Below, one piece after another: positions 7,468-31,526 of a stretch of 32,957 bases of DNA. Source of the DNA: Phycisphaerales bacterium (GTDB lineage: Bacteria > Planctomycetota > Phycisphaerae > Phycisphaerales > UBA1924). The stretch is taken from positions 1 to 32,957 of the forward strand of contig JAESRA010000089.1 in assembly GCA_016764895.1 (NCBI GenBank). The letters run 5' to 3'. Within the stretch, counting starts at the first letter, position 1. Each line of letters starts with the position of its first letter. The position numbers and the translations under genes are program-made. The notes under the pieces are model-generated. The model ran no database searches. It worked only from the letters and a program-made list of their open reading frames with translations, and had not been told where the DNA came from.

Positions 7468-10400
7468 TCACATGGCTTCGATCAGAATGTACACATCTTC
7501 CATGCTCACAATCCCATCGCGATTCAGATCCGAATTTGCATCCGAAGTCCCAAGCGATTTGACCATTATGGAAATATCGAAGAAGTCAATCACGCCGTCA
7601 CCATTGATGTCTGCTGTTCGTAGCCCCTGAGGCCCACAATCATCAATAATACTCGACAAGATCCGAACGACATCTTCGCGGTTAAAGTTCTCAATAAACG
7701 GATGCGAGTTCTCTTTGAGTTGCTGCCCCTCTTCATTGAGGAACCTGTCCAATGGCTGGACTTCAACAAAGACCTCGCCAGCACCAGATACTGAAAGCGT
7801 GTCGATATGCACCGGATTGGTTGGATCAGTCACATCGATCACCTGCAAACCAATACCAAAGTTGGCAAGCATTGCATAATCGTCAACGCCGGGAGGTGCC
7901 ATCTGGCTGGCGACATCAACATCCATGACGCTCCCGCCAAGATTGGTCAACGCCGCAGTTTGGTAGATGGTCTCAGGGTCTGTCATATCAAAGATATAAA
8001 GCCCCGCATCACCCGCAGCAACATACAGAAAGTCATGCTCAAACGACGGCGTATTGGCATCGCCAGTGATCCAAGCCGTGTACGAATCCAAACCAATCGC
8101 ACCGGGTAGATGGATCGTTCGCAGCAAGGTCGGGCTGCTCATATTGGGCAGCAAATCGACCACATGCACACCTTGGTCAGGATCGGCTACATACGCCCGA
8201 ACCTCAAAGCCTTGGCCTTGCTGGTAGTGCGAGTACACCCGGATATCCTGAGCATTGATCCCTGAAACCTCCGCCTCAATATATGGATAATGCTGATCGG
8301 AAATATTGACAATAAACATCCCATCATTGCCCGCAGCGACAAACAGATGGATACCCCAAACCAGTACACTCTGTGCCCCTGGAATATCAACTGTTGTAAT
8401 ATATTTGGGCGCCCGAATCCCATGACTCGCAATCGCCGGAGGCGTATCGCTCAGAACCGATGGACCTTCCCGGCTGTCATACACATGAACACCAACACCC
8501 TGGTCAACCACATAGAAATACTTGGCCACTCGAGCAACATCAATCGCGTTGATGCCTTTGATAAGCGTGACAGGACTTGTAAACGGGGTATCTTCAACAT
8601 CAAACCCGATCAGTCCGTCATTGCCCGCTGCGACATACACCGCATCGGCAGAACCATCAACAACATCAGGCCTCGTCACAAGGCCCATCGGATTGGCCAC
8701 ATCAAGCGTAGTCACCAATGATGGCGAAGTTGGATCAGTGATCCGGTCGTACACACGAACACCATCAGGTGCTGTGACATACACATAGTTCCGCGCCAGC
8801 GAATAGTTCCCAGTACCCATACCAAGCGACGCCGGCGAACGGTGACACTCAGCACAAGACCGTACATTGCCAGGCCCTTGAACCGTGTGCGGCTGCACCG
8901 GGTTCATGCCAAGCCCAGAAACACCCTTGGAAGTCTGAGGCATCTGGAAATCAAGAATCTTGGTTCCATCAGCCGCAGTCACATCAGCGATCGGCTGACA
9001 AGCCACCAAGTAAGGCGCGACCCGTCCTTCACTATTTGGACCAATGAAGAACGGACGGAAACTCTCAAAGACCTTATTGTTGGTCTTGACCCGGCCAATC
9101 TCTTCGTTCCGAGTCACAAGGTTCACCCCTGTAAACCGCTCGTCACGCTCGAAATGACACCCAAAACAGTTCGGTGTCCATGCCGAGTGACACGCATAAC
9201 ACTCAAGCCCGCCCGTATTCTTGAGGTGGTTCCCATCCATTGCACATGCAGCACGAGGGTTGTAACTATCTGATTCTGGATTCACAATGTCACGAACCAA
9301 TGGGATGGTGTGTATCTTGCCTGAAACCTTAGAAGTCAACTTGGCCACTTCGCCTTCCATGCGAGTGTTGTTCAACTCAAAACCATCATGATCCATCATC
9401 GTCGGGAGTTCGCCCGGCATCCCATGACACATCCGGCATTCAATCTTTGTCGCCTGATCCATATGACCATAAATATTGCCATCGCCCATAATCCCCTGAG
9501 CAGTGTGGCAATCAATACAATCAAGACCCAACTCAAAGTGAACATCCTGAGGGTTCACAGCATCGTTTGAGTAGTGGTAGTTGCTGTTGAACTTCTCATC
9601 AGTCGTACCAGCAATATCCGGCGTATTAGGCAGCCGAGGAGGCATCTGGGCACGCCCAGTATAATTCAACCCAATCCGTGCCCCGCGGTGGTGACAGTGG
9701 ATGCACTGCTCGGTATCAATCTTCTTGGTAATCTGGTGGATTCGTGGGTGCCCGGTCTGCGTATGGTCAATACTCATATCCGCACTGCGAGACAATCCAT
9801 CGTTGTCATAAAGCATATGACACGCGGCACACCCATCAGCTCGATAAGTCCCCTCCGCATTGATCGCCCCACGATACCCCTTACCACGCGACCACAAATG
9901 ACACCGCGCACAAGCCTGTGCAGGTACAGCAGCAAAATGAGTCGCATTATTCAGCGGATCACCCATAGGGTCATACTCAATCAAATCCTTCAAACTCTGC
10001 ACAGCCCCCTTCTCCAACGGCACAATACCGTCGGTGTCTTCCACCGCAAAGGTGCCATAGATCGGAGTCTTGGTCGCCTGCACACCGTTCAGATACAAAC
10101 CGCCAGCATAATGCCCCGCCGCGGTCGCCATCATGCTCTTGAGCACGGTCTCGACCTTATCAGGGTGACATGCACCACAGGTATCATTGACCACACGAAG
10201 ATTCGACGGATTCACAAACTTCTGGTAAGGCAAGTCATAGTCCAACGGAGCAACCGTATTATCCATAATCACCGGCAGCGTCGGAAGAACATGCGCATCC
10301 TCCTTAAACAAAGCATCCGGATCGCCCCCGTGACAGAATGTACAGTCAAGATCAAAACCCATCGACTCCGTTACATTCTCAATCTCACTATGACACACAA

Positions 10401-10671
10401 GACACTTAGGGTAAATCTCCCCCAAAGGCCCACGGTTCACCTGAGGCACCAACCGTCCATCAAAGGTCTCAACAGGCCCCGTATTCTCAAACTGCGTCTG
10501 CCCCAAACCAGCATGAACAGAATCATCCGGCATCCCAGCAGCACTGTAACTTGGAACCTCACGCTCAACGCCTGATTCAGTCTCAGACGGAGCAATCCCC
10601 ATTGCAAACAAAACAGCACCGACCGAAAGTACGCTCATTGCGAGCACAGTAGTTGAACGCTTGATACGCAT
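7468..10671 (-). CDS. Secreted multiheme cytochrome c with LVIVD-type repeat region and C-terminal dockerin/EF-hand-like module
   Basis: 11 CXXCH motifs (CLVCH, CTFCH, CGACH, CARCH, CAACH, CIHCH, CIDCH, CRMCH, CYACH, CFGCH, CAECH); repeats such as VYVTAPDGVRVYD, FYVVDQGVGVHVYD, LFVAAGNDGMFIVNISD; tail ADINGDGVIDFFDISIMV...DLNRDGIVSMEDVYILIEAM. Signal peptide supports start MRIKRSTTVLAMSVLS at 10671. Confidence 0.9.
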   Translation of the reverse strand: MRIKRSTTVLAMSVLSVGAVLFAMGIAPSETESGVEREVPSYSAAGMPDDSVHAGLGQTQFENTGPVETFDGRLVPQVNRGPLGEIYPKCLVCHSEIENVTESMGFDLDCTFCHGGDPDALFKEDAHVLPTLPVIMDNTVAPLDYDLPYQKFVNPSNLRVVNDTCGACHPDKVETVLKSMMATAAGHYAGGLYLNGVQATKTPIYGTFAVEDTDGIVPLEKGAVQSLKDLIEYDPMGDPLNNATHFAAVPAQACARCHLWSRGKGYRGAINAEGTYRADGCAACHMLYDNDGLSRSADMSIDHTQTGHPRIHQITKKIDTEQCIHCHHRGARIGLNYTGRAQMPPRLPNTPDIAGTTDEKFNSNYHYSNDAVNPQDVHFELGLDCIDCHTAQGIMGDGNIYGHMDQATKIECRMCHGMPGELPTMMDHDGFELNNTRMEGEVAKLTSKVSGKIHTIPLVRDIVNPESDSYNPRAACAMDGNHLKNTGGLECYACHSAWTPNCFGCHFERDERFTGVNLVTRNEEIGRVKTNNKVFESFRPFFIGPNSEGRVAPYLVACQPIADVTAADGTKILDFQMPQTSKGVSGLGMNPVQPHTVQGPGNVRSCAECHRSPASLGMGTGNYSLARNYVYVTAPDGVRVYDRITDPTSPSLVTTLDVANPMGLVTRPDVVDGSADAVYVAAGNDGLIGFDVEDTPFTSPVTLIKGINAIDVARVAKYFYVVDQGVGVHVYDSREGPSVLSDTPPAIASHGIRAPKYITTVDIPGAQSVLVWGIHLFVAAGNDGMFIVNISDQHYPYIEAEVSGINAQDIRVYSHYQQGQGFEVRAYVADPDQGVHVVDLLPNMSSPTLLRTIHLPGAIGLDSYTAWITGDANTPSFEHDFLYVAAGDAGLYIFDMTDPETIYQTAALTNLGGSVMDVDVASQMAPPGVDDYAMLANFGIGLQVIDVTDPTNPVHIDTLSVSGAGEVFVEVQPLDRFLNEEGQQLKENSHPFIENFNREDVVRILSSIIDDCGPQGLRTADINGDGVIDFFDISIMVKSLGTSDANSDLNRDGIVSMEDVYILIEAM

Positions 10672-10923
10672 CGCGACTCCAAATCCTACTAAATCATTGG
10701 ACAAAGTTGTCTTCTTTACTCTCTCTTCGGTACACCGTATTGGCTTTTTGATTCAAAAACAAGAAAATTACATCATTTTAAGATATTTTTGTCCTCAATA
10801 ATCCCTCCTCAAAGACGCATTCTCATGAAACAGGAAAATGGATGGACCAAGCCTCCATTAAAAACAATCTTCCTTCTGCACAGCAAACAATACCATTGTG
10901 TACACTCTTGTCCGCTTTATTAA

Positions 10924-12372
<1,449 letters not shown>

Positions 12373-13627: not shown

Positions 13628-14203
13628 TCAGGGTTCGCAACAAGCCCCACTTGAACAACATGAAGCCGACGCTTTATTCCAAGGCAGCACGCTCAGCAAC
13701 TTGGCCATCCCGCACCAACCACTCAGTCCTGCGAATATCAGCCCGCAACCAACAAACGCGCTGATCCCATAAAGCCAAGGATTCACCAGCGTGCCAAGCA
13801 CCACGCCAGAGACAATGAGAAAACCTGCAACAATCTGCACCTGCCGCATAATGTCGATCTTGGGAGCCGACGCCGACCGCAGCACCGGACGCTCGGCCGC
13901 TTTCCATCCTTCAATCCCGCCCTGAAGATGAAACACCTGCTCGCCGCCAAACTTGGTAGCCGCTTCAGATGATCGCTTCCCGGTCCGGCAATAAAACACC
14001 ACACGACAATCTCCACACTCTTTGCGTAGTTGCTCGGCATCAAACTTCGATAAACAATGATTCCGCGACTGCTCGATCCGCTCGCTCGCATGTTCGAAAT
14101 CTTCACGGACATCAACCAAGATGGCCTCACCATCAGCGATCCATTTCTGAACCATCTCTGGGGACACATCAACAAGTTCACACACATCGGTTCCAGTGGC
14201 CAT
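13628..14203 (-). CDS. Rhodanese-like protein with DUF2892 membrane domain (YgaP-like)
   Basis: 191 aa. ILVDVREDFEHA, VVFYCRTGKRSSEAA (CRTGKRS loop), then two hydrophobic helices; Cys-rich tail SCCSSGACCEP. Confidence 0.85.
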   Translation of the reverse strand: MATGTDVCELVDVSPEMVQKWIADGEAILVDVREDFEHASERIEQSRNHCLSKFDAEQLRKECGDCRVVFYCRTGKRSSEAATKFGGEQVFHLQGGIEGWKAAERPVLRSASAPKIDIMRQVQIVAGFLIVSGVVLGTLVNPWLYGISAFVGCGLIFAGLSGWCGMAKLLSVLPWNKASASCCSSGACCEP

Positions 14204-14245
14204 ATTCGACTCCTAAGAATCCTGCTCCCAAATGATAAGCAACTC

Positions 14246-15676
14246 TTAGCCCCGAGACGACAACTGCTGCCAGGCAAGATGCCCGCCTTCCAAATTCACC
14301 ACCTGGAACCCCCGCCGCTGTAAATACGCCGCAGAAATCGCCGATCGAACACCACTGTGACAGTTGACAAGTAGACGGGTGTTCTCAGGAATTTCATCAA
14401 GCCGGCACGCCAGCCGCGTATGAGCAATGTTGATCGCCCCAGGCAAATGCCCGCACGCAAACTCCGTCATCCGCCGAACATCAAGCACCTGCACTTCCCC
14501 AGCATCAATCATGCCCGCCGCCTCAGCAGCGTCCACCTGAGCAATACTCGCCAGGCCATGTTCAGAATCTGAATACTGCTCAATTTCAGACGCATCCACC
14601 CAACCACGAATCCGATCAAGACCAATCCGAATCAAATCACGAATCGCATCTTCAAGATGCTCAGGTGCAATCACAAGATAAATCTCATCAGTATCTTCAA
14701 CCATCGACCCAACATTGGTATTGAAGGTCGTCATCAAAGGAAACGACATCGCCCCAGGCACATGCCCAGCCCGAAACGCTTCCCAAGGCCGCGTATCAAC
14801 AAGAGCAACCCGCTTTGCATCAAGTGCTCGCAGATCAGCTCCAGACATCTTCACAGGCCTTGGCAAATCTCCCAACACCGGCGGCCCGATCTTGTTGTCC
14901 CGCTTCATATTAGCAAAATACATCGGCGGCTCAGGCTGACCCTCAAGTATGAAATCCACAAAGTTCTGTTCGGAGGTCGCTGCAAGCAACGCCGGATTAA
15001 ACCGCCGCTCATATCCAACCGTACTCATCGGCACCGCACCAAGCGCCTTTCCACACGCACTCCCCGCCCCATGGGCCGGCCAAATCTGCACAAAATCAGG
15101 AATATCATCAAGCTTCTTGGTCGTCGCATACAGCGTGCGAGCAGACGGATCCATCATCCCCGAAATCCCAGCCGCCGATTCAAGCAAATCAGGACGACCA
15201 AGATCACCAACAAACACAAAGTCACCACTGGCCATTGCAATAGGCTCAGTCGCCCCAGACCCATGATCCGTAATCATGAACACAATATGTTCAGGCGTAT
15301 GCCCAGGAGTGTGGATCACCTTAAGTTCAATGTTTCCGATATGGAACGAGTCACCATCATAAAGCAGCGTGTGCTCATAGCTTCCGCCACCAACCTTCTG
15401 ATCAAGCCACTCATATTTCCAGTTCGCATCCCCCTCATCAGACACAAACACATGAGCCCCAACTTCCTCGGCAAGCTCACGCGACCCAGAAACAAAATCC
15501 GCATGAATATGCGTCTCAGCCGTCGCAACAATCCGAAGCTCATTCTCCGCAGCCAGCTTGATGTACCGATCAACATCCCGCTCAGGATCAATAATCACGG
15601 CCTCTCCAGTCTTCTGGCAACCAATCAAATACGCCGCCTGAGCAAGATTCTCGTCATAAACCATCCGCATAAACAT
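14246..15676 (-). CDS. MBL-fold metallohydrolase fused to two rhodanese domains (persulfide dioxygenase/Blh-like)
   Basis: 476 aa. TAETHIHADFVSGS, HTPGHTPEHIVF, GDLGRPDL, then a rhodanese domain without a catalytic Cys and a C-terminal rhodanese domain with NCHSGVRS. Confidence 0.88.
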   Translation of the reverse strand: MFMRMVYDENLAQAAYLIGCQKTGEAVIIDPERDVDRYIKLAAENELRIVATAETHIHADFVSGSRELAEEVGAHVFVSDEGDANWKYEWLDQKVGGGSYEHTLLYDGDSFHIGNIELKVIHTPGHTPEHIVFMITDHGSGATEPIAMASGDFVFVGDLGRPDLLESAAGISGMMDPSARTLYATTKKLDDIPDFVQIWPAHGAGSACGKALGAVPMSTVGYERRFNPALLAATSEQNFVDFILEGQPEPPMYFANMKRDNKIGPPVLGDLPRPVKMSGADLRALDAKRVALVDTRPWEAFRAGHVPGAMSFPLMTTFNTNVGSMVEDTDEIYLVIAPEHLEDAIRDLIRIGLDRIRGWVDASEIEQYSDSEHGLASIAQVDAAEAAGMIDAGEVQVLDVRRMTEFACGHLPGAINIAHTRLACRLDEIPENTRLLVNCHSGVRSAISAAYLQRRGFQVVNLEGGHLAWQQLSSRG

Positions 15677-17110: not shown

Positions 17111-19111
17111 TCACGGGCAACCCGCGCCGTACTCTGACAAGAATGCTGAAATATCAAAGAAGTCAAAGACGGTGTCTCCATTGAAGTCCACTGAGTTGGC
17201 CAAGAAGAACGAGATATCGAAGAAGTCAAGGGTGCCATCACCATTCAAATCTGCTTCACAAATCACGATAGGTGCAGAAAGGTTAATGAACTGGTCGCCA
17301 GCGATAGCGTTAAAGTCCAAGTCGTTAATCCCATCGCTATCCGCATCGCGAGGGCCCACATTGTCTGAGCCATCAGGGATCCCGCCGAGAATCTGGTTCG
17401 ACAAGAAGGAGAACGAATCGTTCGAAATCCAGCCAGCCATCAAAATATCCTGAACCCCGTCCCAACCAAGTTCATCAAGATCAATACAAATCTCGATACC
17501 AGAGTTCACAGCCGCCGCAGCAGCAGGGTCAGCCGCCACATCAGTCACACCAGCAACATTGGAGTTGTCGATCGCAAGCTGAATCAAGCCAGGCATTGGA
17601 TTAAACGGGTCAGTTTCAAGAAGGCGAGGAGCGTACTGAGCAAACAGACTCCCGAAGGTACCGTCCTGGATATCAACCTGTGGACCAGAGAAGTCCATCA
17701 CAGGCGTAGCAACGACCTCACCACCAAAGTATGAACCGTAATCAGTGATCACACCAAAGAACGGATCAATGTTGGCACCATTGGTACGAAGCGTTGCCGC
17801 ATCGGTGAAGTTGAGCAGGTCATCGCCGCTCACGCCGTTGTTGGTGTTCATCCAGTAATCAGGCTCAAAGCCAGCATCAAAGGTGATCCCAGCCATCCCA
17901 TTTAAGTTGTTAAAGCTGATATCAACATTGTTATCCAGAAGAACATTCTGGCCACCAGGCTGAACATCAAAGAAGAAGTTCAACTTGTTCCAGTTGTTCT
18001 GCATGTTGCCACCAATAAAGAGATACAAACGATTGTTCACGGTGTCAATATACACTCGGCAGTTATTGAGTTCTGAGCCATACGCCCAGTTCGTGTCAGG
18101 CGAAACAGGTGTAGGCGAAGCCTGTGACCCCAGAACACCAGCGATATTCGAGTTGTCAATACCCATGCTCACGCCGCCGACGAGTGCGCCAGCGTTGGCG
18201 GCACCGTAGCCAGCCAGTGAACCGAGATCATCAATCGTCGAAGACATCCCACCAAAATACGCACGAGGCACATTCGGAGTTGTCCCGTCATCAGCATCGT
18301 CGTTCCACGCATCAACTGAGAAGAGATAGTCAGCATCAAAGCCAGCATCAAATACCAGGCCCGACTGGCCATCAATGATGAACCCACCATCGCCAGAGCC
18401 AGCGCCAAGAACCGCATCGCCGCCAACGCCTGTATCAATGTACAGATCCAAAGCGTTGCCGTTGTTCTCAAGGTTACCGGCTACAAAGATGTAGAGGTTG
18501 GTCGCGTCCTTGGCCATGTAGATCCCGTCGATCTCAGAGCCACCACCATTGGGGCCTGAGCCATCTTCGGTGCCGTCGGTTTCGTCACCGAATCCGGTGT
18601 AGTTCCCCTGAAGGAATGCGTTGGTGTATGCCGGGCCAGCATCAAGAGTGCCGTCAACAGCCGGGGTGCCCGATGCGATTGCACCGAGGTCAACTGAAAT
18701 GTGCTGTGTTGTTGTATCAAACGGGGCAGCGTTCAGGTCCTGAGCACCACCGAGGTTGTTCGTATCAACAACCAAATCGCCAACGATCTGATTGGACTTA
18801 AATGTCCGATCACCAGAGTTCACCCAGCCCGCGATGCGGATTGTTTCGGTGCCAGTGAGGCCCAGCGATGCCAGTGGGATACAGATTTCAATACCCGTAC
18901 CAACATTCTCAGGATCACCAAAGACGCCACCTTGGAACAAACCTGGGCTGTTATCACCGAATGCGGTCGCATTATTATTCACCCAGATCACATCTGAGTA
19001 AAATGCATCCTCGGTACCGGCATCGTACAGCCCGTCAATTACTGGCTGGGCCATGACCGAACCTGCGCAGGCCGCAATGGTTACAGCCATCATTGATTTT
19101 GAAACTCTCAT
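17111..19111 (-). CDS. Secreted repeat protein with C-terminal GC-type dockerin
   Basis: Start MRVSKSMMAVTIAACAGSVMAQP with GAGGAG upstream. Tail CEADLNGDGTLDFFDISFFLANSVDFNGDTVFDFFDISAFLSEYGAGCP. Internal homologous repeats. Confidence 0.85.
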   Translation of the reverse strand: MRVSKSMMAVTIAACAGSVMAQPVIDGLYDAGTEDAFYSDVIWVNNNATAFGDNSPGLFQGGVFGDPENVGTGIEICIPLASLGLTGTETIRIAGWVNSGDRTFKSNQIVGDLVVDTNNLGGAQDLNAAPFDTTTQHISVDLGAIASGTPAVDGTLDAGPAYTNAFLQGNYTGFGDETDGTEDGSGPNGGGSEIDGIYMAKDATNLYIFVAGNLENNGNALDLYIDTGVGGDAVLGAGSGDGGFIIDGQSGLVFDAGFDADYLFSVDAWNDDADDGTTPNVPRAYFGGMSSTIDDLGSLAGYGAANAGALVGGVSMGIDNSNIAGVLGSQASPTPVSPDTNWAYGSELNNCRVYIDTVNNRLYLFIGGNMQNNWNKLNFFFDVQPGGQNVLLDNNVDISFNNLNGMAGITFDAGFEPDYWMNTNNGVSGDDLLNFTDAATLRTNGANIDPFFGVITDYGSYFGGEVVATPVMDFSGPQVDIQDGTFGSLFAQYAPRLLETDPFNPMPGLIQLAIDNSNVAGVTDVAADPAAAAAVNSGIEICIDLDELGWDGVQDILMAGWISNDSFSFLSNQILGGIPDGSDNVGPRDADSDGINDLDFNAIAGDQFINLSAPIVICEADLNGDGTLDFFDISFFLANSVDFNGDTVFDFFDISAFLSEYGAGCP

Positions 19112-19290
19112 TCTGATCTCCTCAAAGATTCTGGGTATAAACACCACGGTCCAACGCGGTGAATTTGTTCAAAACGCCGCGTAAAAGCCGCGACCAAACA
19201 TGACCACCATATCACAGAGTCCGTGGTTCAATCGTCGAAAACTGTCATTTTTAGTAGAAAATATAACTTTGTACCAAAACCACCACCGCC

Positions 19291-21183
19291 CTACTCCGGC
19301 CACTCAACCAATCGCAAATCCACACCCCAACACGACTCACCACGCTCAAAACGATGGTTCACTTCCGATATCAATCCCCCAGCATTCCCATCCCCACCCT
19401 CTCTCCAAACAATACCGCATGGTCCGATAGACACCACCAACGCCCGATCACCAATCCATCGCGTCACCCGAACCCCCGCCCCATCCTCGCTCGCCTCCCA
19501 CTCCGCATCACCAAACCGGATCAACTCCCCAAACCCAGGATCACGATTCAACCCCATAATCCACCGAACCTCATCCCGGAACCATCGGCTCCGAGAATCG
19601 ACCCCGCCAGATGAAAAATGCTCCGGATTGATCGGGTGCCGATCATCAGGATCATCCGCCCCCACCATCCCAAACTCATCCCCATTATAAATCATCGATG
19701 CCCCAGGATTGGCAACCATCAACATATACGCAACCAACGCCCGTACAAGAGCATCGTCACTGACCGTGTCCCGGTCATATGTTTCCGAATCCCTCCACGG
19801 GTGGGCCCCATTATCAAACGATCTCTGGTGATCATTGTGCATAAGTGACGCCAGCCGCTCGGTATCGTGTGAACTCATCAGGTTTAGCTGACTCAGATCG
19901 GTTTCCAGATCATGCGAGTACACTTCACGGAGCCGGGCCACCAACGACCTCGCATCCCCCTTCATATGCCCAATCGAAAGCCAGTCCGCCACCGCATACG
20001 CCATCGGATAATTCATCTGCGCATCAAACGCAGTCCCATCAAAATACTCCCTCCCATCAAACCAAATCTCCCCAACAATCAACGCCTCTGGATTCAATTC
20101 CTTGACCAACAACCGCCAATCCTTCCAAAAAGGCCTCCCAATCTCATTGGCAACATCAAGACGCCATCCATCAATCCCATCAGACGGATCGCCATCCCCA
20201 TTGGGATCCATCCATCGCCTCGTCACCGCCATCATGTGTGCTTTAGGCCCAGGCGCCAAATCCCCCGTTTCAGTCTGCCGAAACACAGGCAAGTCACCGT
20301 TCTTCCCATTCCATGATTTCCATCCAATCAACTGCCCGCTCCCCCAGTAATCATCAAACTCGGCCTCAAACCAATCCGCATACTTTGACGCACGCCCATG
20401 CTTGATCACATCGTCAAATGCCCAGTGATCCCGGCCCACATGGTTCCAGACCCCATCAAGTATGATCTTCATCCCCCGCTCATGCACCGCCGGGATAAAG
20501 GTCTCAACGAACCAAACATCCGCAGGCGTCCAATCCCAAGTCGATTCATCGCTCGGATCACCCACCGTCGAAGCCTCCACCACCCCAATCCCCCCAATTG
20601 TGGATATCTCCCCAGGATGACCCAGCGTCGGATCAATATGTCGCTGATCCGCAGCATCATATTTATGCAACGAAGTCGATGTGAACACCGGGCATATATA
20701 GATACCCTCTACCCCCAACTCCTGAAGCACATCAAGATGTTCGAGCACCCCTTGCAGATCCCCTCCATACCGCCTTTGAAAAATCACATTGGCAATTGCC
20801 CCACCAGCCTGGCCCGGATCGAACCAAAACCGCAACGGCTCACCAGCCGAAAGTATCCACGCACGCTCAATTTCCTCAATTGTCGGCTCATCAAACGGCT
20901 GGTCCCATAACACCGTAGTGCTCCGGGCCTGAACAGGATCATTCCCCGGATTCCCATTGGCAAATCGCTCAGGAAACACCTGATACCACACCATCCCACG
21001 CGACCACACAGGCCCAAATCGAGAATCTTCCTCAATTTCTGACTCAATCTGGGTAGCCACCCTACCCCCCCGCTCATCAGGGCCTTCTGTACTTTCAGCC
21101 CCGTGGGATAGACCAATCGCAGTCAAAATCACCAATACGGCCACCATTTTCAAACCGAACAACGAAAACTGATTTGCATACAT
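19291..21183 (-). CDS. GH13 alpha-amylase family enzyme (neopullulanase/cyclomaltodextrinase-like), exported
   Basis: GMKIILDGVWNHVG, DGWRLDVANE, LIVGEIWFD, LMSSHDTERL. Start MYANQFSLFGLKMVAVLVILTAIGLSHGA at 21183 (signal peptide); the track start at 21408 would overlap the divergent gene. Confidence 0.9.
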   Translation of the reverse strand: MYANQFSLFGLKMVAVLVILTAIGLSHGAESTEGPDERGGRVATQIESEIEEDSRFGPVWSRGMVWYQVFPERFANGNPGNDPVQARSTTVLWDQPFDEPTIEEIERAWILSAGEPLRFWFDPGQAGGAIANVIFQRRYGGDLQGVLEHLDVLQELGVEGIYICPVFTSTSLHKYDAADQRHIDPTLGHPGEISTIGGIGVVEASTVGDPSDESTWDWTPADVWFVETFIPAVHERGMKIILDGVWNHVGRDHWAFDDVIKHGRASKYADWFEAEFDDYWGSGQLIGWKSWNGKNGDLPVFRQTETGDLAPGPKAHMMAVTRRWMDPNGDGDPSDGIDGWRLDVANEIGRPFWKDWRLLVKELNPEALIVGEIWFDGREYFDGTAFDAQMNYPMAYAVADWLSIGHMKGDARSLVARLREVYSHDLETDLSQLNLMSSHDTERLASLMHNDHQRSFDNGAHPWRDSETYDRDTVSDDALVRALVAYMLMVANPGASMIYNGDEFGMVGADDPDDRHPINPEHFSSGGVDSRSRWFRDEVRWIMGLNRDPGFGELIRFGDAEWEASEDGAGVRVTRWIGDRALVVSIGPCGIVWREGGDGNAGGLISEVNHRFERGESCWGVDLRLVEWPE

Positions 21184-21307
21184 AGCGATTCCCTGTTGAC
21201 GCGGGCCAATTGATCCAGTAAAGTTCCGGTTGGGAACATAGAGGCATTTTTGCAATCTACAATTTTGCAGGCCTCGTCGCAACGATCGTATAACAAGGAT
21301 ACCACCA

Positions 21308-22303
21308 ATGCCCCCCCATCGCCGACTGGCCTTCACCCTAATCGAACTCCTCGTTGTGATCGCCATCATTGCCCTACTCATAGGCATCCTCTTGCCAGCA
21401 CTGGGCAAAGCTAGGCAGTCAGCTCAGGATATTAAGTGTCAGGTGGGTAATCGAACAATCTCCCAAACTATGACACTCTACGCAGATGACAATAAAGGTT
21501 GGCTGCCGATGATTCCTGCAGATAATCGCGCTGTTCCATACCCCGATCGCGATACGATCGTTAGGAAGCAATCAGGAGCGGGTGGGCTCGCCGGCTTCTT
21601 CTCACTGATACAAGTGGGTGACGCACCCTGGACCGGAGGACCCGCTCCAACCACCGGCGACCGCGGATATGTCGGCTCGATGCTCGGCGGCATTGGCGCC
21701 TACCCAAATGGTCAAAAAACCCCCGTAATGGATGGCTATATGGACGCCTTCGAATCCCTAACCTGCGCAAGGGACAAGGCAGACAGCTATTTCCCAAGGC
21801 CATTTAATATGGACCAACGCTACAGCGATGCCAACAGAGTAGACAAAACACCTGAACCCCCGGGCAGGCCCGAAGATGTCATCAGCTACAACATCAGCTA
21901 CATCTATATCGCCGGCCTGAGAATTGACGAACCAGGACTCCCCTACGCGATCCCTTTCTTTGGCGATGAAACAAATACAAACGATCTTGTATTCAATGCT
22001 TGGTATGGCTACGACTGGAAAAATGGCACAGCCGGAACTGAGAGCCAAGATGTTCTTGACGAAGTGGGGTACAACCCTGTTTCCGGATACGCAAAAATTG
22101 ACAACCACGGTGCAGATGGTGGGTATTTCGCATTCACCGACGGGCATGTTGAATTTATCGAAAAAAACCCCCAAAGAACTTTCTTCGCAAGCCTAAACGA
22201 TCCGCTTCTTTCCGACGAACTTCGAAACGAAATAAAAAGTGAAGGCCTCAGCATGGATATCTACAAACCAGGACGGAGCAATTTTGTCCGTACAATGGAC
22301 TAA
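21308..22303 (+). CDS. Prepilin-type N-terminal cleavage/methylation domain protein (pseudopilin-like, H-X9-DG type)
   Basis: [31 protein letters not shown] and [11 protein letters not shown]. Confidence 0.9.
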
Positions 22304-22368
22304 ATAACACACCGTTACCATTCTCTTCCCAAGCTCACCACGACCATGACAATTGATCGAGGCGAACC

Positions 22369-23625
22369 GTGACCACAGCGAACCCCGCTCCCAAAAAATC
22401 CAGCACCAAACCACCATTCCTCAAACGACTCTTGGCACACCAAGAGTCAGGCTTGGTATTGGTCATCATATTGATCTCCCTAGGACTCACTCTTTTCGGA
22501 ACACTCAATCCCGTCGAAACAAAAAACGCCATCGAACGCCCCGCCGGCTCCCAAGTCCTCCTCCTCGATGCCCAAGGCGTCACCCACGCCAACGGCACCA
22601 TCGCACGAACAAAAATCGCCACCTACCGAGTAAAATCCCCCGACTCCCACACAGACTACCCCGCCAATCAAATCAAAAACTACGACTCCACAACCGACAC
22701 CCTCTACAAAATCACCAAACTCAACCCCTTCCTCAACAAATCAAATCTCGTACTCGTCACCAAAGACGCGAGTTTCTTTGCCATCATCGCCGTAGGAATG
22801 ACAGGCGTCATCATCCTCGCAGGCATCGACCTCTCCGTCGGCTCCATCTATGGCCTCTGCGCCATCGTCGGCGCAATGATCCTCACAAATCTCCCCCCCG
22901 ATACAGGATGGATCGTCGCCGTCCCCATCGCCCTCCTCGTTTGCATGACCGTCGGCACCCTCTGCGGCTTCGCCAACGGCGCCATGAGCGAAGGTCTAGG
23001 CGTACACCCCTTCGTCATCACCCTCGGCATGATGGCCATCCTCCGAGGCCTCACCGTCGTCATACCACAAGAACTCTTCGGCACACAATCCATCGGAGGA
23101 TTCCCCACCTCCTTCACCACAGGATTCTTCAAAGCCGAATTCTTCGGCGTATACCCCGTCCCCGTCATCATCATGATCCTCTGCGGAATCGTCGGCTGGT
23201 TCGTACTCGCCAAAACGGTCTTCGGCCGGCGCATCTTTGCCATCGGCGGCAACGAAACAGCCGCCAAATACGCAGGCATCCCAGTCAAAAAAACCAAAAT
23301 ACTCGTCTACACCATCACCGGAGCCCTCTGCGGCCTCTCAGCATGTGCATACCTCGGCTACTACGGGGCCGCCGAAACCAACGCCGGCAACGCCTACGAG
23401 CTCCAGGTCATCGCCGCCACCGTCATCGGCGGCGCATCGCTCATGGGCGGGCGAGGCACCGTCATCGGGGCCGTCCTCGGAGCCATCATCATCCAACTCA
23501 TCAACAACACCCTCATCATCTTCGAGGTTGACACCAGTTATAATCAAATCGTCATGGGCGCCGCCATCATCATCGCGGTCGTCATCGACCAAACCAAACA
23601 AAGAATCCAAGCCCGCAGGGCTTAA
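22369..23625 (+). CDS. Sugar ABC transporter permease (RbsC/BPD_transp_2 family)
   Basis: 418 aa, GTG start. AVGMTGVIILAGIDLSVGSIYGL, TVIGGASLMGGRGTVIGAVLGA, FGRRIFAIGGNETAAKYAGI. Confidence 0.92.
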   Translation: MTTANPAPKKSSTKPPFLKRLLAHQESGLVLVIILISLGLTLFGTLNPVETKNAIERPAGSQVLLLDAQGVTHANGTIARTKIATYRVKSPDSHTDYPANQIKNYDSTTDTLYKITKLNPFLNKSNLVLVTKDASFFAIIAVGMTGVIILAGIDLSVGSIYGLCAIVGAMILTNLPPDTGWIVAVPIALLVCMTVGTLCGFANGAMSEGLGVHPFVITLGMMAILRGLTVVIPQELFGTQSIGGFPTSFTTGFFKAEFFGVYPVPVIIMILCGIVGWFVLAKTVFGRRIFAIGGNETAAKYAGIPVKKTKILVYTITGALCGLSACAYLGYYGAAETNAGNAYELQVIAATVIGGASLMGGRGTVIGAVLGAIIIQLINNTLIIFEVDTSYNQIVMGAAIIIAVVIDQTKQRIQARRA

Positions 23626-23648
23626 AAACCAAACCGGAGCCATCCACA

Positions 23649-24686
23649 ATGTTCACACGCCACCCACTGCTCTCTACAGCAATGTTCTCACTCTCAGCCC
23701 TCTCCCTCATCGGATGCTCCGGCGGATCAGACTCCGAAAAAAACACAGGCGACGACCACGCTGACCACGGCGACCACGCCCACGACGACATCACCTACAA
23801 AATCGGCGTCATCGCCAAAAGCAACTCCAACCCAGTATTCCTCGCTGCAAAAAACGGAGCCTTCGCAGCAGGCAAGCGACTCACCAAAGAACTCGACGGC
23901 GCAACCGTCGAAATCCTCTGGCAAACCCCCGCCATGGAAGACGCTCAACTCCAAGCCCAATATGTAGAACAACTCGTCGCCTCAGGCATCGACGGCATCG
24001 CCATCTCCTGCACCGATGCAAACCTCCTCACCAGCGCACTCAAAGCAGCCGTCGACAAAGGCGTCATCGTCGTCACCTTCGACTCAGACGCACCAGACTC
24101 AGGACGCATGGCCTACTACGGCGTAAACGACTACGAAGCCGGCAAAGAACTCATGCGACAACTCGCCACCGTCATGAACAACGAAGGCAAAGTCGCCGTC
24201 CTCACCGGAAACCCCGCCGCCACCAACCTCCAAGCCCGCGTCAACGGCGTCGTCGAACAAGCCGCCGAGTACGACGGCATCGAAATCCCTATGGTCTATT
24301 CCTTCATGCCAGAAACCGCAACAGAAGCCGCCGCAAAAATGCAACAAGTTCAAACCGCAAACCCAGACATCACAGGCTGGGCACTCGTCGGAGGCTGGCC
24401 CCTCTACACCGACAACGCACTCGACGGCATCTACGAAAATGCCAAAATCGCCTCAATGGACCCCCTCCCACTCCCACTTCAATACGCCATGAAGGGACAA
24501 GTTCAGGTCCTCGTAGGCCAACCATACTACGGCTGGGGCGAAAAATCAGTCGAAATGATCGTCGACAAACTCCACTTCGATCGCAGCCCAGCATCCGACA
24601 TGGTCATCGCCGACTTTGACATCGTCACCACCGAAACCGCCGAAGAGTTCTTAAAGAACTGGGAACTCTGGCTCGGCAAAGATTGA
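23649..24686 (+). CDS. Sugar ABC transporter substrate-binding lipoprotein (RbsB-like, Peripla_BP_4)
   Basis: 345 aa. Lipobox LSLIGCSGG, His/Asp-rich linker DDHADHGDHAHDD, YKIGVIAKSNSNPVFLAAKNGA, GIDGIAISCTDANLL. Confidence 0.9.
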   Translation: MFTRHPLLSTAMFSLSALSLIGCSGGSDSEKNTGDDHADHGDHAHDDITYKIGVIAKSNSNPVFLAAKNGAFAAGKRLTKELDGATVEILWQTPAMEDAQLQAQYVEQLVASGIDGIAISCTDANLLTSALKAAVDKGVIVVTFDSDAPDSGRMAYYGVNDYEAGKELMRQLATVMNNEGKVAVLTGNPAATNLQARVNGVVEQAAEYDGIEIPMVYSFMPETATEAAAKMQQVQTANPDITGWALVGGWPLYTDNALDGIYENAKIASMDPLPLPLQYAMKGQVQVLVGQPYYGWGEKSVEMIVDKLHFDRSPASDMVIADFDIVTTETAEEFLKNWELWLGKD

Positions 24687-24695
24687 TACCGGTTT

Positions 24696-26303
24696 ATGTC
24701 TGACACCAAACCAAACCTGATCGCCACCGGCATCTCAAAGCGTTTCGGTAATACCCAAGCACTCAAAGATGTCACCGTGTCCTTCTTCCCCGGAGAAGTC
24801 CACGCGCTCATGGGCGAGAACGGTGCGGGCAAATCCACCCTCGGCAAAGTCCTCGCAGGCCTCCACGCACAAAACACCGGCACAGTCACCCTCAACAGCC
24901 GCAAACTCATCCCAGGCTCCCTCGACGACGCATTCCACGCAGGCATCAGAATCGTCCACCAAGAACTCGCCCAATGCCCAAACCTCTCCGTCGCAGAAAA
25001 CCTCTGCCTCCACGACATCCCCACCAAAGGCCTCACCGTCGATTTCGCAGAAATGGAACGACGAGCCGCTGCCCTGGTCCATCAACTTGACCCAGACATT
25101 GATGTCACCAAACCCCTCGGCCTCCTCTCCCCAGGCCGACGCCAAATCTGCCAGATCGCCGCATCACTCGACAAAAACCCCGACGGCTCCATGATCGCCA
25201 AGATCATCGTCCTCGACGAACCCACCTCGTCGCTGTCGATCTCCGAAGCATCCATCCTCATGGACATCGCCCGCGACCTTGCCTCCAAAGGCCTCACCAT
25301 CATCTATGTCTCCCACCGCATGAGCGAAATCTTCACCTGCTGCGACCGCGTCACCATCCTCCGTGATGGCAAGTTCGTCGCCACCAATATCGTCAGCGAA
25401 ATCGACGAACCCACCCTCGTCGAACAAATGATCGGACGACGAATCGAAGCCCTCCAAAACAAATCCAACGGCTCCAACCAATCCATCGAAACCCAAGCCC
25501 TCAAAGCCCAAATCGGCACCGATCATCACACCCCCGTATCCCACAGCGGAAACCCACGGCTCGTTATCAAAAAACTCTACTCCCCAGGAAAACTCGACAA
25601 CTGCTCTCTGAATCTCTACCCCGGAGAAGTCCTCGGCATCGGAGGCCTCGTCGGAGCAGGCCGCTCCGAACTCTTCGACGCCATCTTCAACATCGACACC
25701 CGCGCCAAAGGATCGGTCAAAATTGACGGCGACGAAATCCTCGGTAAAGGCATCCGCGCCGCAATCGACGCCGGTGTAGGGCTCGGCTATGTTCCCGAAG
25801 ACCGGCGCATCCAAGGCCTCTTCTTCAATCTCGGTATCGACGAAAATATCATCGCCCCAATCATGAACCGCATGGCTGGCCCGCTGGGAATCCGTAACCG
25901 AGCCGCAGAACTCGAAACCGTCCGCAAACGCATCGGACGCTTCCAAATCAAAACCGCCTCACTCTCCCAAACAACCCCAGGCGAACTCTCAGGCGGCAAC
26001 CAACAAAAACTCCTCATCGCCCGATGGATGACCCAAGACACCAAAGTCCTCCTCCTCGACGAACCCACACGAGGCATCGATGTCGGCACCAAAGCCGAAA
26101 TCTACAAACTCATCCGCCAGGCCGCCGACGACGGCCTCGCAATCCTCCTGGTCTCCTCAGAAATGCCAGAACTCCTCGCCTTATCCGACCGCATCCTCGT
26201 CATGGGCGACGGCCAAATCAAAGGCGAACTGACCGAAAACCAAATGACCCAAACCAACATCCTCACACTCGCTACCAAAGAAAAAGCCCACGCCTTGGTC
26301 TGA
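24696..26303 (+). CDS. Sugar ABC transporter ATP-binding protein (RbsA-like, two ATPase domains)
   Basis: 535 aa. GENGAGKSTLGKVLAG, VLDEPTSSL, ELSGGNQQKLLIARWM, LLLDEPTRGIDVGTK. Confidence 0.93.
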   Translation: MSDTKPNLIATGISKRFGNTQALKDVTVSFFPGEVHALMGENGAGKSTLGKVLAGLHAQNTGTVTLNSRKLIPGSLDDAFHAGIRIVHQELAQCPNLSVAENLCLHDIPTKGLTVDFAEMERRAAALVHQLDPDIDVTKPLGLLSPGRRQICQIAASLDKNPDGSMIAKIIVLDEPTSSLSISEASILMDIARDLASKGLTIIYVSHRMSEIFTCCDRVTILRDGKFVATNIVSEIDEPTLVEQMIGRRIEALQNKSNGSNQSIETQALKAQIGTDHHTPVSHSGNPRLVIKKLYSPGKLDNCSLNLYPGEVLGIGGLVGAGRSELFDAIFNIDTRAKGSVKIDGDEILGKGIRAAIDAGVGLGYVPEDRRIQGLFFNLGIDENIIAPIMNRMAGPLGIRNRAAELETVRKRIGRFQIKTASLSQTTPGELSGGNQQKLLIARWMTQDTKVLLLDEPTRGIDVGTKAEIYKLIRQAADDGLAILLVSSEMPELLALSDRILVMGDGQIKGELTENQMTQTNILTLATKEKAHALV

Positions 26304-26358
26304 TGTACAAACCATTGCATGGGCTTCTTGTTTCTTCTGTGTTCTTCAGGCCATCAAA

Positions 26359-28518
26359 TCACTTGACAACAACATGAACCGGCTTGTCTGAACCAATCAC
26401 ACGCGCATTGATCGTGCGGTCAGGATACGAAATCGATCCGTCCACACGCTTCACATACACAACAATCTTATCGCCGGCATCCTTGGCATACAACGACGAC
26501 TCAAGGTACTCGCCCATCAGGTAGCCAAAGCCCTCGCCTTCGTCTTCATACATCGTGCCCTTGGCGTAGCCATCAGCATTGAGATGCACAATCAGCGTCA
26601 GCTCATCGCGTGAATCGGGACGATCACCAAAGTACTGTGTCACCGGCGCCGTCGGGATGATCCCGCCGGGACGGATAAACAACGCCGGCAGATGCTCATC
26701 CTTTGAGTCACGACCCGAATCAAAGTCCGGAAAATCAAACGCCGCCCATTCAACACCGTCAACCGCCGACGGCATCGCCGAGACTCGATCCCCCTCAGGA
26801 GTCGCCTTGGTGACAATCAACAACTCTGCACCGAGCAAGAACGAATCATCCTCAGAACGCAGTGCCGGATCGGCAGGATCCGCAAAGAATGTTGGCCGAG
26901 CAATCGGCATCCCGGTATCGGCAGACTCTTTAAACAGCGTGTATATATAAGGCATCAACCGGTATCGCCGCTCAAGCCCGCGCCGGCTCGTATCCTCAAC
27001 CTCCTGGCCAAATGACCAAGGCTCCTTATCAATATTCCCCTTGGCTGTATGCCCACGCGAGAACGGGAACAGCGTTCCAAAGCCCATCCACCGCTGAAAC
27101 AACTCACCATCGCCGTTGTAGGCAAACCCACCAATATCAGGCCCAACAAACGGCTGACCAGACAAACTCAAGTTCAGCGACATCCCAATCGACATATCAA
27201 GGTGTGCCCAGTTGGCACTGTTATCACCAGTCCAGGTCGCTCCGTAGCGTTGCCCACCGATGAAGTTGGCTCGCGAAAGCACAAACGGCCGCTTATCAGG
27301 ATTCGTCGCCATCACGCCCTCGCGTGTTGCGCGGATCATCTGCATGCCATACACATTGTGATAGCGTGCATGCGTATCGGTCCCGCCCAACTCTGGGTCA
27401 GCCCGGTGGATATTGGTCTCAGGCATGGTTTTGGATTCTACATTAAACACCGCAGGTTCGTTCATGTCGTTCCACACGCCGTCGATGTTGTAGGCCATGA
27501 ACTCTTCGTAGAGCCCCGCCCACCAGTTGCGGACATCCTTGTTCAAATAATCAGGGAACACACACACACCGGGCCAGACATTGCCGTTGTACACATTCCC
27601 GTCCTTGTCCCGAACCCAAGCATTATGCTCATCGCCTGAATCAGATACAAAATATCCATCTTCATCCTTGACACCCGGATCAATCATCCAAACATTCGAA
27701 AACCCCTTGGTATCAAGCCAATCATTGAGTCCCTTAGGATCAGGAAACTGCTCAGGATCAAAGGTAAACACGCGATACTCGTCCATGTAATCAATATCCA
27801 TCCAAATCACATCCGCCGGAAGCTTCCGAGCCCGAAACTCATTCACCACCTCTTTAACCCGTGAATCAGGATTATACGAATACCGGCACTGGTGATACCC
27901 CACAGCCCACTTAGGAGGCATCGCAATCGTCCCCGTAAGCACACCAAGCCCCAGCATCACATCCTGAGGCGAATCGCCATCAATCACAATAACCGCAAAG
28001 TCCCCACCCTCAGCACGAAAAGTAATCCCGTCCCGAAGATCGATCTCACACCGGTAAGTCGTATCAGCCAACACCCCAAACGCCGTACCATCGGCCCGCA
28101 CCGCAAGCACCCAAGGGTGCGATGTATACAAATTCTTAGCATCAAGCCCATACCCAAAAGCATCCAAATTCCAAGTCTCAGTCACAAACCCATTCCGAAG
28201 CAAAGGCCCAGCCGCCTGCCCAGTCCCATACAACGATGTCCCCGCATCAATCGAGATCGACGCGACCGTCCGCCCCGTCACCTCATCTATCGAGTACGCC
28301 GGAACCTCATTGAGTGATCCCAGCCCAACATCCCCAAAAGACTCAAACACATGAGCAAGAGCAAATGACGGCTTCCGATCCTGCCGGGCCTCCAAGGTCC
28401 GATCAAAGCGAACAATTCCTTCGCCGATAACCTGAGCCACCTGAGCCTGAGAGCTCGCAATGAATCCAAGCGACAAACTTCCGAGCACCAAAATTTGGGT
28501 AAATAACTGCTTTTTCAC
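26359..28518 (-). CDS. GH31 alpha-glucosidase
   Basis: 719 aa. DVIWMDIDYMDEYRVFTFD, DGVWNDMNEPAVF, PFVGPDIGGFAYNGDGELFQRWM. Confidence 0.92.
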   Translation of the reverse strand: MKKQLFTQILVLGSLSLGFIASSQAQVAQVIGEGIVRFDRTLEARQDRKPSFALAHVFESFGDVGLGSLNEVPAYSIDEVTGRTVASISIDAGTSLYGTGQAAGPLLRNGFVTETWNLDAFGYGLDAKNLYTSHPWVLAVRADGTAFGVLADTTYRCEIDLRDGITFRAEGGDFAVIVIDGDSPQDVMLGLGVLTGTIAMPPKWAVGYHQCRYSYNPDSRVKEVVNEFRARKLPADVIWMDIDYMDEYRVFTFDPEQFPDPKGLNDWLDTKGFSNVWMIDPGVKDEDGYFVSDSGDEHNAWVRDKDGNVYNGNVWPGVCVFPDYLNKDVRNWWAGLYEEFMAYNIDGVWNDMNEPAVFNVESKTMPETNIHRADPELGGTDTHARYHNVYGMQMIRATREGVMATNPDKRPFVLSRANFIGGQRYGATWTGDNSANWAHLDMSIGMSLNLSLSGQPFVGPDIGGFAYNGDGELFQRWMGFGTLFPFSRGHTAKGNIDKEPWSFGQEVEDTSRRGLERRYRLMPYIYTLFKESADTGMPIARPTFFADPADPALRSEDDSFLLGAELLIVTKATPEGDRVSAMPSAVDGVEWAAFDFPDFDSGRDSKDEHLPALFIRPGGIIPTAPVTQYFGDRPDSRDELTLIVHLNADGYAKGTMYEDEGEGFGYLMGEYLESSLYAKDAGDKIVVYVKRVDGSISYPDRTINARVIGSDKPVHVVVK

Positions 28519-28760
28519 GCGGCAACCTCACTAAAAACTGCGTATAGACCCACGCACGGCGCATGAGTAAAATCGACTGTCGGTACACAATACTTCTCGG
28601 ACTGCTCTTCGTGCAGAATTTGAGCAAGAAAACATCGCAAAGTGTCAATATTTTAGTTCACAGCCACCACAAAATCGTCAATAATCATCAAGCCGCTCTA
28701 TACACCAGGCATCCAGCCGGTTTTGGGCTCGTTTTAAGTTGTTCCACTGAAAGGCCATCC

Positions 28761-31526
28761 ATGTCATCCAACGCGAAATCTCACCGCTCCGCCATCATCA
28801 TCGGGGCCCTGATCGCCACTACAGGCATCGCTGTCCAAACCGCACAAGCCCAAAACAAACTCAACTACCTCCAATGGTTTGAAACAGAATGGGACGACAT
28901 CGAACGCCGCACCCCCGATGTCTTCCTCGCAGGCTACGACGCACTCTGGCTACCACCACCCTCAAAAGCCTCATTCACCTCAGTAGGTTACGATCCATTT
29001 GACCGCTTCGATCTCGGACAACCCCCACTCCTAAGCTTCTCCCCATCACGCAAGCGCACAACCTATGGCACCGAAGCCACCTTCCAAGCAATGATCGACG
29101 AACTCCAACGCTCCGGCGCCGAAGTCTACATCGACGGCATCTTCAACCACAACGGCGGAAGAACCACCTCAGACGCATTCCTCGCACAAGGTGGATACCC
29201 AGGCTTCTGGATCCCACGCGAAAGCCCGCCCCGAAACAAACTTCCAACAGACAACTGGGGCGACTTCCACAACGGAAACGCCTCAGGATACCTCCAATCA
29301 GAAAACCCAGGCGGCTCAAACTACGACCTCCACAGAGGCGACCTCGTCGCCCTCGTCGACATCGCTCAAGAAGAAAACTACCCATTCATCCGCCAACCAG
29401 TCAACGCAGGAGATCCCCAAAACATCCCCGCAGGCACCATCTACAACCGCCCAGACCCAAACAACGCACGCTTCTACACAGACCAAGCACTCTCCCCAGA
29501 CAACTTCATCAACCCCGGAACCTCCAGAAACCCAGGCGCACAAACCTTCACACGCTTCCCATACAACACCATCAACCAAATGCAAGGCGACCCAGTTGCC
29601 GACAACGGCACAGGCATGCTCATGCGATGGGCACAATGGATGATCCAAGTCCAAGGCGTCGACGGCTTCCGCCTCGATGCACTCAAACACACCCCAAGCT
29701 GGTTCTGGGACGGCTTCTTCGACTCAGCAATACACAACCTTCGCGTCCGCCCCAGCGGCGGAAACATCAACCCATTCACCTTCGGCGAAAACATCATCGG
29801 AAACTTCGACAACCTCAGCAACTACATCCGCAAAGACTCCTTCGCAAACCGTGACGGCCTCGATATCCAAGGCGCCGCCCGTCTCCGCGACCTCCTCAAC
29901 GCCAACGGCCTCGGCTCCTGGGCAAACATCAACTCCGATCTAAACTCAGGACACCTCGATGTCACAGACGACGGATTTGTCAACGGCTCAATGGGTGTCA
30001 ACCATGTATTCTCACACGACAACGGCACAGTCGGCTCCGGAAGCTCCATGCCACCATACCCCACCGTCACACAACAAGCCTACCAAATGCACGCCTACAT
30101 GCTCATGCGACCAGGCAGGGCCATCGTCTACCACAACGGCCGAGGCATCATCGCACGCTCCAGCGGATTCTTCCCACGCGAAGGAGTCCCAGCAGCCCTC
30201 GGATACGACCCCATAACCCAACAACTTGACCCCACCATCACCAAACTCGTCCAAATACGAAACCAAGTCGCTTTCGGACAATACTTCCAACTCAACTCAA
30301 ACCTCAACGATGTCATGGTCTTTGAACGAGCATTCAACGGCACCGCAAACTCCCTCACAGCAGTCAACGACCGATTCGATGTAGGCCACCAAGTCGTCTC
30401 CGTAGCCACCTCCTACCCACAAGGTACCAGAATCCATGAAATGACCGGAAACGCCGCAGACCCCCTCGTAGACCCCAACAACAACATCCCAGAAACCATC
30501 GTCGTAGGATTCGGTGGCTCCGTCACACTCACCATCCCAAACAACACCTCCTCAGCAGGAACCCATGGCAAAGGCTACCTCATCTACGCAGAATCCCTCC
30601 CAGAAACAACCCTCACCTTCATCGGACAAAACGGCACCATCGAACCAGACCCAACCAACTTCCCAGACTGGATCCAACGCCTCAGCCAAATCGCAGTCAT
30701 CAATAGCGACTCATTTGAAATCCGTCTCCAAACAGCACCAGGCGACCTCCTAGACCCCAACACAGACGACAACGCCATGTTCGCCTGGGACAACCGCACC
30801 CGCGACTGGAACGGCAACGGCGCCCCAGACATCTCCCCAACCGCCCTAGGACTCGCAGGATTCGAACAATTCCTCACCGTAAACAGTCCCCTATACAACT
30901 CAGGAAACCCCTTCGGCCTCTACCGCCAAGTCATCGACGCCACCACCATGGACGAAGGCATGCACTACCTCACCACCGTCGCATTCCGCCGCCGCCCCCC
31001 AGGCACCACCCCCATCTATCGTGAAACCCGAAAAGTCGTCTACATCGACCGCCTCCCACCAGAAGTCTCCCTCCAGCAAGCCGGGCAAACCCTAGAGGAC
31101 AATCAACCCCAGTTCATCGTCCACGCACTCGACCGCACCACAACCGCCCTCCACCTCCTTCTCAATGTCCCAGAAGGCACCGACCCACTCACACTAATCA
31201 ACTCAGGAACCCGAATACCACCATACGACCGTTTCGAATACCGCCACATCTTCAACGGCGCCCTCGACGATGGACTCAACAAAATCACCATGGTCGCAAT
31301 CGAAGACTCCGGCACCACCAATGTCATCACCGAAACCGTCATCATCGGCGGCCTAACTTGCCGTGCAGACCTGACAGGCGATGGCACACTCGACTTCTTC
31401 GACATCTCCGCCTTCTTGACCCTCTTTGGCAATCAAGACCCAGCCGCAGATTTCTCAGGCGATGGTGCATTTGACTTCTTCGACATCTCCGCCTTCCTCA
31501 CCGAGTTCTCGTCGGGGTGCCCATAA
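28761..31526 (+). CDS. Secreted GH13 alpha-amylase with C-terminal GC-type dockerin
   Basis: Start MSSNAKSHRSAIIIGALIATTGIAVQTAQAQ at 28761. EVYIDGIFNHNGG, VDGFRLDALKHTPSWFW, FGENI, NHVFSHDNG. Tail CRADLTGDGTLDFFDISAFLTLFGNQDPAADFSGDGAFDFFDISAFLTEFSSGCP. The track start at 28563 extends past the signal peptide. Confidence 0.9.
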   Translation: MSSNAKSHRSAIIIGALIATTGIAVQTAQAQNKLNYLQWFETEWDDIERRTPDVFLAGYDALWLPPPSKASFTSVGYDPFDRFDLGQPPLLSFSPSRKRTTYGTEATFQAMIDELQRSGAEVYIDGIFNHNGGRTTSDAFLAQGGYPGFWIPRESPPRNKLPTDNWGDFHNGNASGYLQSENPGGSNYDLHRGDLVALVDIAQEENYPFIRQPVNAGDPQNIPAGTIYNRPDPNNARFYTDQALSPDNFINPGTSRNPGAQTFTRFPYNTINQMQGDPVADNGTGMLMRWAQWMIQVQGVDGFRLDALKHTPSWFWDGFFDSAIHNLRVRPSGGNINPFTFGENIIGNFDNLSNYIRKDSFANRDGLDIQGAARLRDLLNANGLGSWANINSDLNSGHLDVTDDGFVNGSMGVNHVFSHDNGTVGSGSSMPPYPTVTQQAYQMHAYMLMRPGRAIVYHNGRGIIARSSGFFPREGVPAALGYDPITQQLDPTITKLVQIRNQVAFGQYFQLNSNLNDVMVFERAFNGTANSLTAVNDRFDVGHQVVSVATSYPQGTRIHEMTGNAADPLVDPNNNIPETIVVGFGGSVTLTIPNNTSSAGTHGKGYLIYAESLPETTLTFIGQNGTIEPDPTNFPDWIQRLSQIAVINSDSFEIRLQTAPGDLLDPNTDDNAMFAWDNRTRDWNGNGAPDISPTALGLAGFEQFLTVNSPLYNSGNPFGLYRQVIDATTMDEGMHYLTTVAFRRRPPGTTPIYRETRKVVYIDRLPPEVSLQQAGQTLEDNQPQFIVHALDRTTTALHLLLNVPEGTDPLTLINSGTRIPPYDRFEYRHIFNGALDDGLNKITMVAIEDSGTTNVITETVIIGGLTCRADLTGDGTLDFFDISAFLTLFGNQDPAADFSGDGAFDFFDISAFLTEFSSGCP

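Follow-up and report, generated by a model that had tools for sequence, protein, structure and literature searches.

We found that a single minus-strand gene (7468–10671) in the window, which is the whole 32,957-nucleotide stretch of Phycisphaerales DNA analyzed here, encodes a secreted protein of 1067 amino acids in which an ExtM-like cytochrome domain with 11 heme sites, a seven-bladed LVIVD-type beta-propeller and a C-terminal dockerin type I domain are joined. We consider it reasonably likely that the protein is secreted and transfers electrons as ExtM-type cytochromes do, most probably while exposed at the cell surface, with the propeller as its contact domain. Heme and LVIVD proteins of this kind are widespread and apparently form an undescribed class. 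As originally predicted, no paper describing the protein was found in the open-access literature (subscription literature was outside the search), and the open-access papers that contain both LVIVD and cytochrome concern, in the parts available, mycobacterial PE/PPE proteins and Methanosarcina DIET.

Modules of the 7468–10671 protein

The reading frame is uninterrupted and begins with an ATG at 10671; a GGAG lies 6 bases upstream, at 10677–10680. The N-terminus reads as a Sec-type signal peptide (MRIKRSTTVLAMSVLSVGAVLFAMGIAPS; 10585–10671, minus strand, as are all modules below) in which the lipobox pattern is absent. The original prediction that heme, LVIVD and dockerin-like modules are carried on one secreted polypeptide is confirmed, and its module coordinates were borne out (propeller at 7756–8799, dockerin match at 7477–7614). 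It had missed the kinship to ExtM, a conserved ExtM-like segment at 7636–7755, between propeller and dockerin, and the fact that the tail is optional. The module order and the count of exactly 11 hemes are repeated in 13 homologues from the same order, which rules out an assembly artefact. The fused, secreted heme and propeller protein stands; however, its architecture is not unique, since heme and LVIVD are combined in at least 50 relatives.

In the ExtM-like domain (8800–10449), there are 11 CXXCH motifs between 8842 and 10404 (residues 90–610), exactly as predicted; shuffled versions of the protein had 0.015 on average and never more than 1. The domain matches the NCBIfam model for ExtM (NF040943; E 2.2e-56) with 191.4 bits, which does not reach the equivalog cut-off of 800 bits. 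ExtM, encoded in the Geobacter extHIJKLMNOPQS cluster, is a cytochrome with 12 hemes (PMC5877670). When we aligned 78 relatives, each of the 11 heme sites lined up with one in ExtM and its kin, and site 4 was missing from a sister LVIVD clade (clade B; the window protein belongs to clade A). Profile comparisons of the heme domain gave E-values of 4e-65 against ExtM, 3.6e-85 against the 10-heme LVIVD clade and 1e-101 against a small propeller-less group. Judged by alignment and profiles, the heme half is an ExtM-type cytochrome, a variant outside the ExtM equivalog. It is a multiheme cytochrome, as expected, but not one of unknown kind, because its 11 sites are in register with hemes 1–11 of ExtM. 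Fourteen further histidines are kept in 95% or more of the clade (13 without His325, which lies inside a CIHCH motif); these would more than suffice to give each heme a second ligand, and thus for bis-His ligation throughout. An AlphaFold2 model of the domain built with 78 sequences (pLDDT 82, pTM 0.83) had no match among PDB structures, and a PDB sequence search with the protein found the dockerin only.

The LVIVD and dockerin profiles both scored above their Pfam cut-offs, as the original prediction had anticipated (PF08309, 38.9 bits against 20.2; PF00404, 31.0 bits against 22.9, matching at 7477–7614). Between heme 11 and the post-propeller segment, AlphaFold2 returned the expected propeller, with 28 strands arranged as seven blades of four (construct residues 551–898, window 7756–8799) and a pLDDT of mostly 80–95. 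These strands come from a core model with 14 sequences, whereas a good model of the heme half needed 78. Foldseek with the propeller model found PDB propellers (best E 1.8e-9), and a sequence-level search of the PDB with the propeller gave no match.

Behind the propeller, the segment at 7636–7755 (PLDRFLNEEGQQLKENSHPFIENFNREDVVRIL; pattern PLDRFLNEEG..HPF..R.DVVRIL) aligns with the part of ExtM that separates its 11th heme from its 12th (hhalign 90.6%, E 1.3e-6). The post-propeller segment of clade B matches the same place in ExtM (89.6%, E 1.9e-6), and when the pre- and post-propeller pieces are joined, the match to ExtM rises to 98% (E 1.4e-13); three unrelated or non-overlapping control profiles gave E-values of 0.06–0.6. 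Because of this ExtM-like segment, the propeller looks inserted after heme 11, not appended, and the 12th heme of ExtM is missing, with the dockerin in its place.

The dockerin domain itself (7471–7635), a small tail of the calcium-binding type, has two EF-hand-like repeats. In clade A, the tail is dockerin or dockerin-like in 14 f1/f2 genomes and in L061, L065 and L182–L186; L182, the f19 tail tested, is dockerin-like by eye and has no Pfam match. Six relatives with the same core lack it (L062, L064, L068, L187, L188 and L189), and L190 has a different long tail. From the sequences at hand, the clade A tail is optional and exchangeable.

Relatives and genomic context

In the tree, a well supported branch separates each of clade A, clade B and ExtM from the rest (100/99 for clade A). 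Of 301 genomes from the order, 14 carry clade A; in a sample of 397 genomes across the class it is again present in 14, of which nine belong to another family, f19. Clade B proteins (10 hemes plus LVIVD, approximately 1300 amino acids) occur in Verrucomicrobia, Planctomycetota, Acidobacteria, alpha- and gammaproteobacteria and others, and no dockerin-like EF repeats were seen in them in a pattern scan. Clade A and clade B propellers are homologous (profile comparison, 99.7%, E 1e-25). The tree places a propeller-less group next to clade B, so one gain of the propeller and two gains are both compatible with it.

Across clade A, we found no conserved operon or functionally telling neighbor beyond the genus. 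An operon with neighboring genes was dropped, as these are ABC transporters, glycosyltransferases, ETF, UDG and similar, none conserved clade-wide. An MtrCAB-type conduit was dropped because the MtrB/PioB barrel (PF11854) is found in 0 of 21 genomes, and the clade B barrel was dropped as a partner in the same genomes because it is present in 0 of 14 clade A genomes as compared to 4 of 4 clade B genomes. In Phycisphaerae, the clade A gene is an orphan without an adjoining barrel, and the proposal that it forms a system in its own right is not supported.

In the window, a tyrosine phenol-lyase gene (10969–12372, plus strand; 761 bits, over the cut-off) divergently adjoins the cytochrome gene, as it does in all five cytochrome-carrying genomes of the genus. 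A rhodanese with a YgaP-like membrane segment (13628–15676, minus strand) adjoins a metallo-beta-lactamase/rhodanese fusion; an alpha-glucan locus (19291–31526) holds two amylase-family proteins, a GH31 protein and a sugar ABC transporter. There is a weak GC-type dockerin match at the end of 17111–19147 and a sub-threshold PEP-CTERM at the end of 31649–32362. In one relative, a clade A gene that lacks the dockerin is followed immediately downstream by a gene (L188:12259–16479) for a cytochrome with 30 hemes and an NHL propeller at its N-terminus.

The window's own genome contains cytochrome c assembly genes. On another of its contigs (C90, 325–15999), we found a separate candidate electron conduit (L164). 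It comprises a putative outer-membrane barrel, an NHL propeller and three multiheme cytochromes (two DmsE-like with 13 hemes and one with 11), and genes for cytochrome c assembly lie alongside. Among genomes carrying the clade A gene, the L164 barrel is present in 6 of 8 in f1, 7 of 7 in f19 and 0 of 6 in f2. It is found in 6 of 14 genomes with the gene as compared to 40 of 287 genomes (Fisher p = 0.011, uncorrected for kinship), and within the genus in 3 of 5 genomes with clade A and 0 of 9 without (p = 0.027, small counts, likewise uncorrected). The link of clade A to this barrel is weak, and since all six f2 genomes with the gene lack the barrel, it is not established as a fixed partner.

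In clade B, 44 of 59 loci encode a protein family of approximately 750 amino acids, directly upstream in most. The last residue is aromatic in all 44 members listed, which together with a weak porin match suggests a putative outer-membrane beta-barrel. Also near clade B genes are an HbpS-like protein (30 loci), a 10-heme cytochrome (22 loci) and, in 16 loci each, a b561-like membrane protein, a 4Fe-4S/cNMP-binding protein and a 3–4-heme cytochrome. One locus (L092:622–13582) combines the 4Fe-4S/cNMP protein, b561-like protein, 10-heme cytochrome, HbpS-like protein, barrel and heme/LVIVD protein, and the gene set is conserved in Proteobacteria as well as Verrucomicrobia. Clade B loci thus have the layout of a candidate trans-outer-membrane electron conduit.

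Proposed role and alternatives

The match to ExtM, the register of the 11 sites, the conserved histidines, the placement of clade A in the tree, the clade B loci, the porin–multiheme clusters predicted for Verrucomicrobia and the cytochrome loci of the window's own genome together point to an electron-transfer protein, which supports the earlier suggestion of electron transfer as the likely role. The absence of the clade B barrel and of MtrB/PioB, the absence of the L164 barrel from f2 genomes and the lack of telling neighbors speak against it. In the role that we propose, the 11-heme domain would carry electrons along a chain of bis-His hemes, the propeller inserted behind heme 11 would probably make contact, beyond the outer membrane, with a partner or a substrate, and the dockerin tail would serve as an exchangeable tag for targeting or attachment. 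We infer the surface location and, with it, the partner, the substrate and the direction of flow: electrons may pass between the cell's own periplasmic or outer-membrane cytochromes and something outside the cell that accepts or donates them, with a metal oxide, a humic quinone or another protein as candidates. More tentatively, both clades may belong to a widespread, undescribed group of outer-surface terminal cytochromes with a seven-bladed LVIVD propeller inserted in an ExtM-type heme frame. In several phyla, these would be the outer end of a new conduit (4Fe-4S protein, b561, 10-heme cytochrome, barrel, heme/propeller protein), and in Phycisphaerae a dockerin-tagged orphan that uses other conduits.

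Three other roles were considered. The protein could be a periplasmic or outer-membrane metalloid reductase that, like the Geobacter ext cluster, acts on toxic oxyanions, for example selenite or tellurite, with the propeller binding substrate or nascent particles. Its nearest named family, ExtM, comes from a selenite/tellurite operon in which loss of ExtI, a product of that cluster, lowers the reduction of both oxyanions; however, the same study does not show a role for ExtM itself (PMC5877670), other ext genes are absent beside the window gene and its score is 191 against an ExtM equivalog cut-off of 800, and we regard this role as unlikely. We find it quite unlikely that the protein is a true redox enzyme, in which one catalytic heme would act on a small nitrogen or sulfur compound, or on an organic substrate held by the propeller, while the other hemes shuttle electrons. 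Propellers are common catalytic folds, and a PDB search with the cytochrome profile weakly matched nitrite reductases over a short stretch (best E 9e-7), but these matches are confined to heme-motif stretches, each of the 11 sites is an ordinary CXXCH, conserved histidines are plentiful enough for bis-His ligation, and a CXXCK site is not needed to account for any heme.

A cohesin–dockerin complex resembling a 'planctosome', with a surface scaffold to which the cytochrome would dock, seems very unlikely, although the dockerin scores over its Pfam cut-off, the window's own genome encodes approximately 20 further dockerin-like proteins and cohesin/dockerin proteins have been reported from freshwater Planctomycetes (PMC6461901). 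A second, unrelated 10-heme cytochrome in the same genus (L166:8887–10890) also ends in a GC-type dockerin (NF041540, 37.8 bits). In contrast, the cohesin family PF00963 is found in 0 of 14 genomes carrying the gene (the window's own genome is 84% complete) and six relatives have no tail. On these two counts, the earlier idea that the tail docks the protein lost support, and a cohesin partner was dropped. A cohesin may be too divergent for PF00963 or may lie on missing contigs.

ExtM is conserved, and kin with a recognizable partner-binding fold give a handle on its function; the fold predicted here for the heme domain also lacks a PDB match. Little has been described of extracellular electron transfer in Planctomycetota and Verrucomicrobia, and the compact putative conduit operon of clade B is also present in named strains, namely Steroidobacter agaridevorans, Fontimonas thermophila, Verrucomicrobia IMCC26134 and Planctomycetes Pan216, so its function can be tested genetically and on electrodes.

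Comparison with known systems

The window protein shares with ExtM (Geobacter GSU2935) the 11 sites in register, the overall frame and the segment after heme 11; however, ExtM has a 12th heme and neither propeller nor dockerin, and it sits among the extHIJKLMNOPQS genes, whereas no other ext genes surround the window gene. The region of hemes 7–11 matches MtrC/MtrF domain II/IV (PF22113) with 31.5 bits, just over the cut-off of 30, but the protein has no full-length match to MtrC/MtrF and its genome has no MtrB/PioB. The blade motif and predicted propeller resemble those of LVIVD repeat proteins, here with seven blades inside a cytochrome.

He et al. (2017) predicted porin–multiheme clusters for extracellular electron transfer in Verrucomicrobia and named IMCC26134 (PMC5615132), a strain that holds a clade B locus here (L132). 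Most clade B genes, like those clusters, have a putative barrel alongside, but the window gene does not. The clade B conduit may be the system predicted in that paper; the published clusters contain 8-heme periplasmic cytochromes, the paper does not mention LVIVD and identity of the loci is not proven. In SRB-partner and D. ferrophilus operons (PMC5539420, PMC8322314), the parts are separate polypeptides, with a six-bladed core protein and other cytochromes; even so, these operons too bring together a beta-propeller and multiheme cytochromes that presumably serve extracellular electron transfer.
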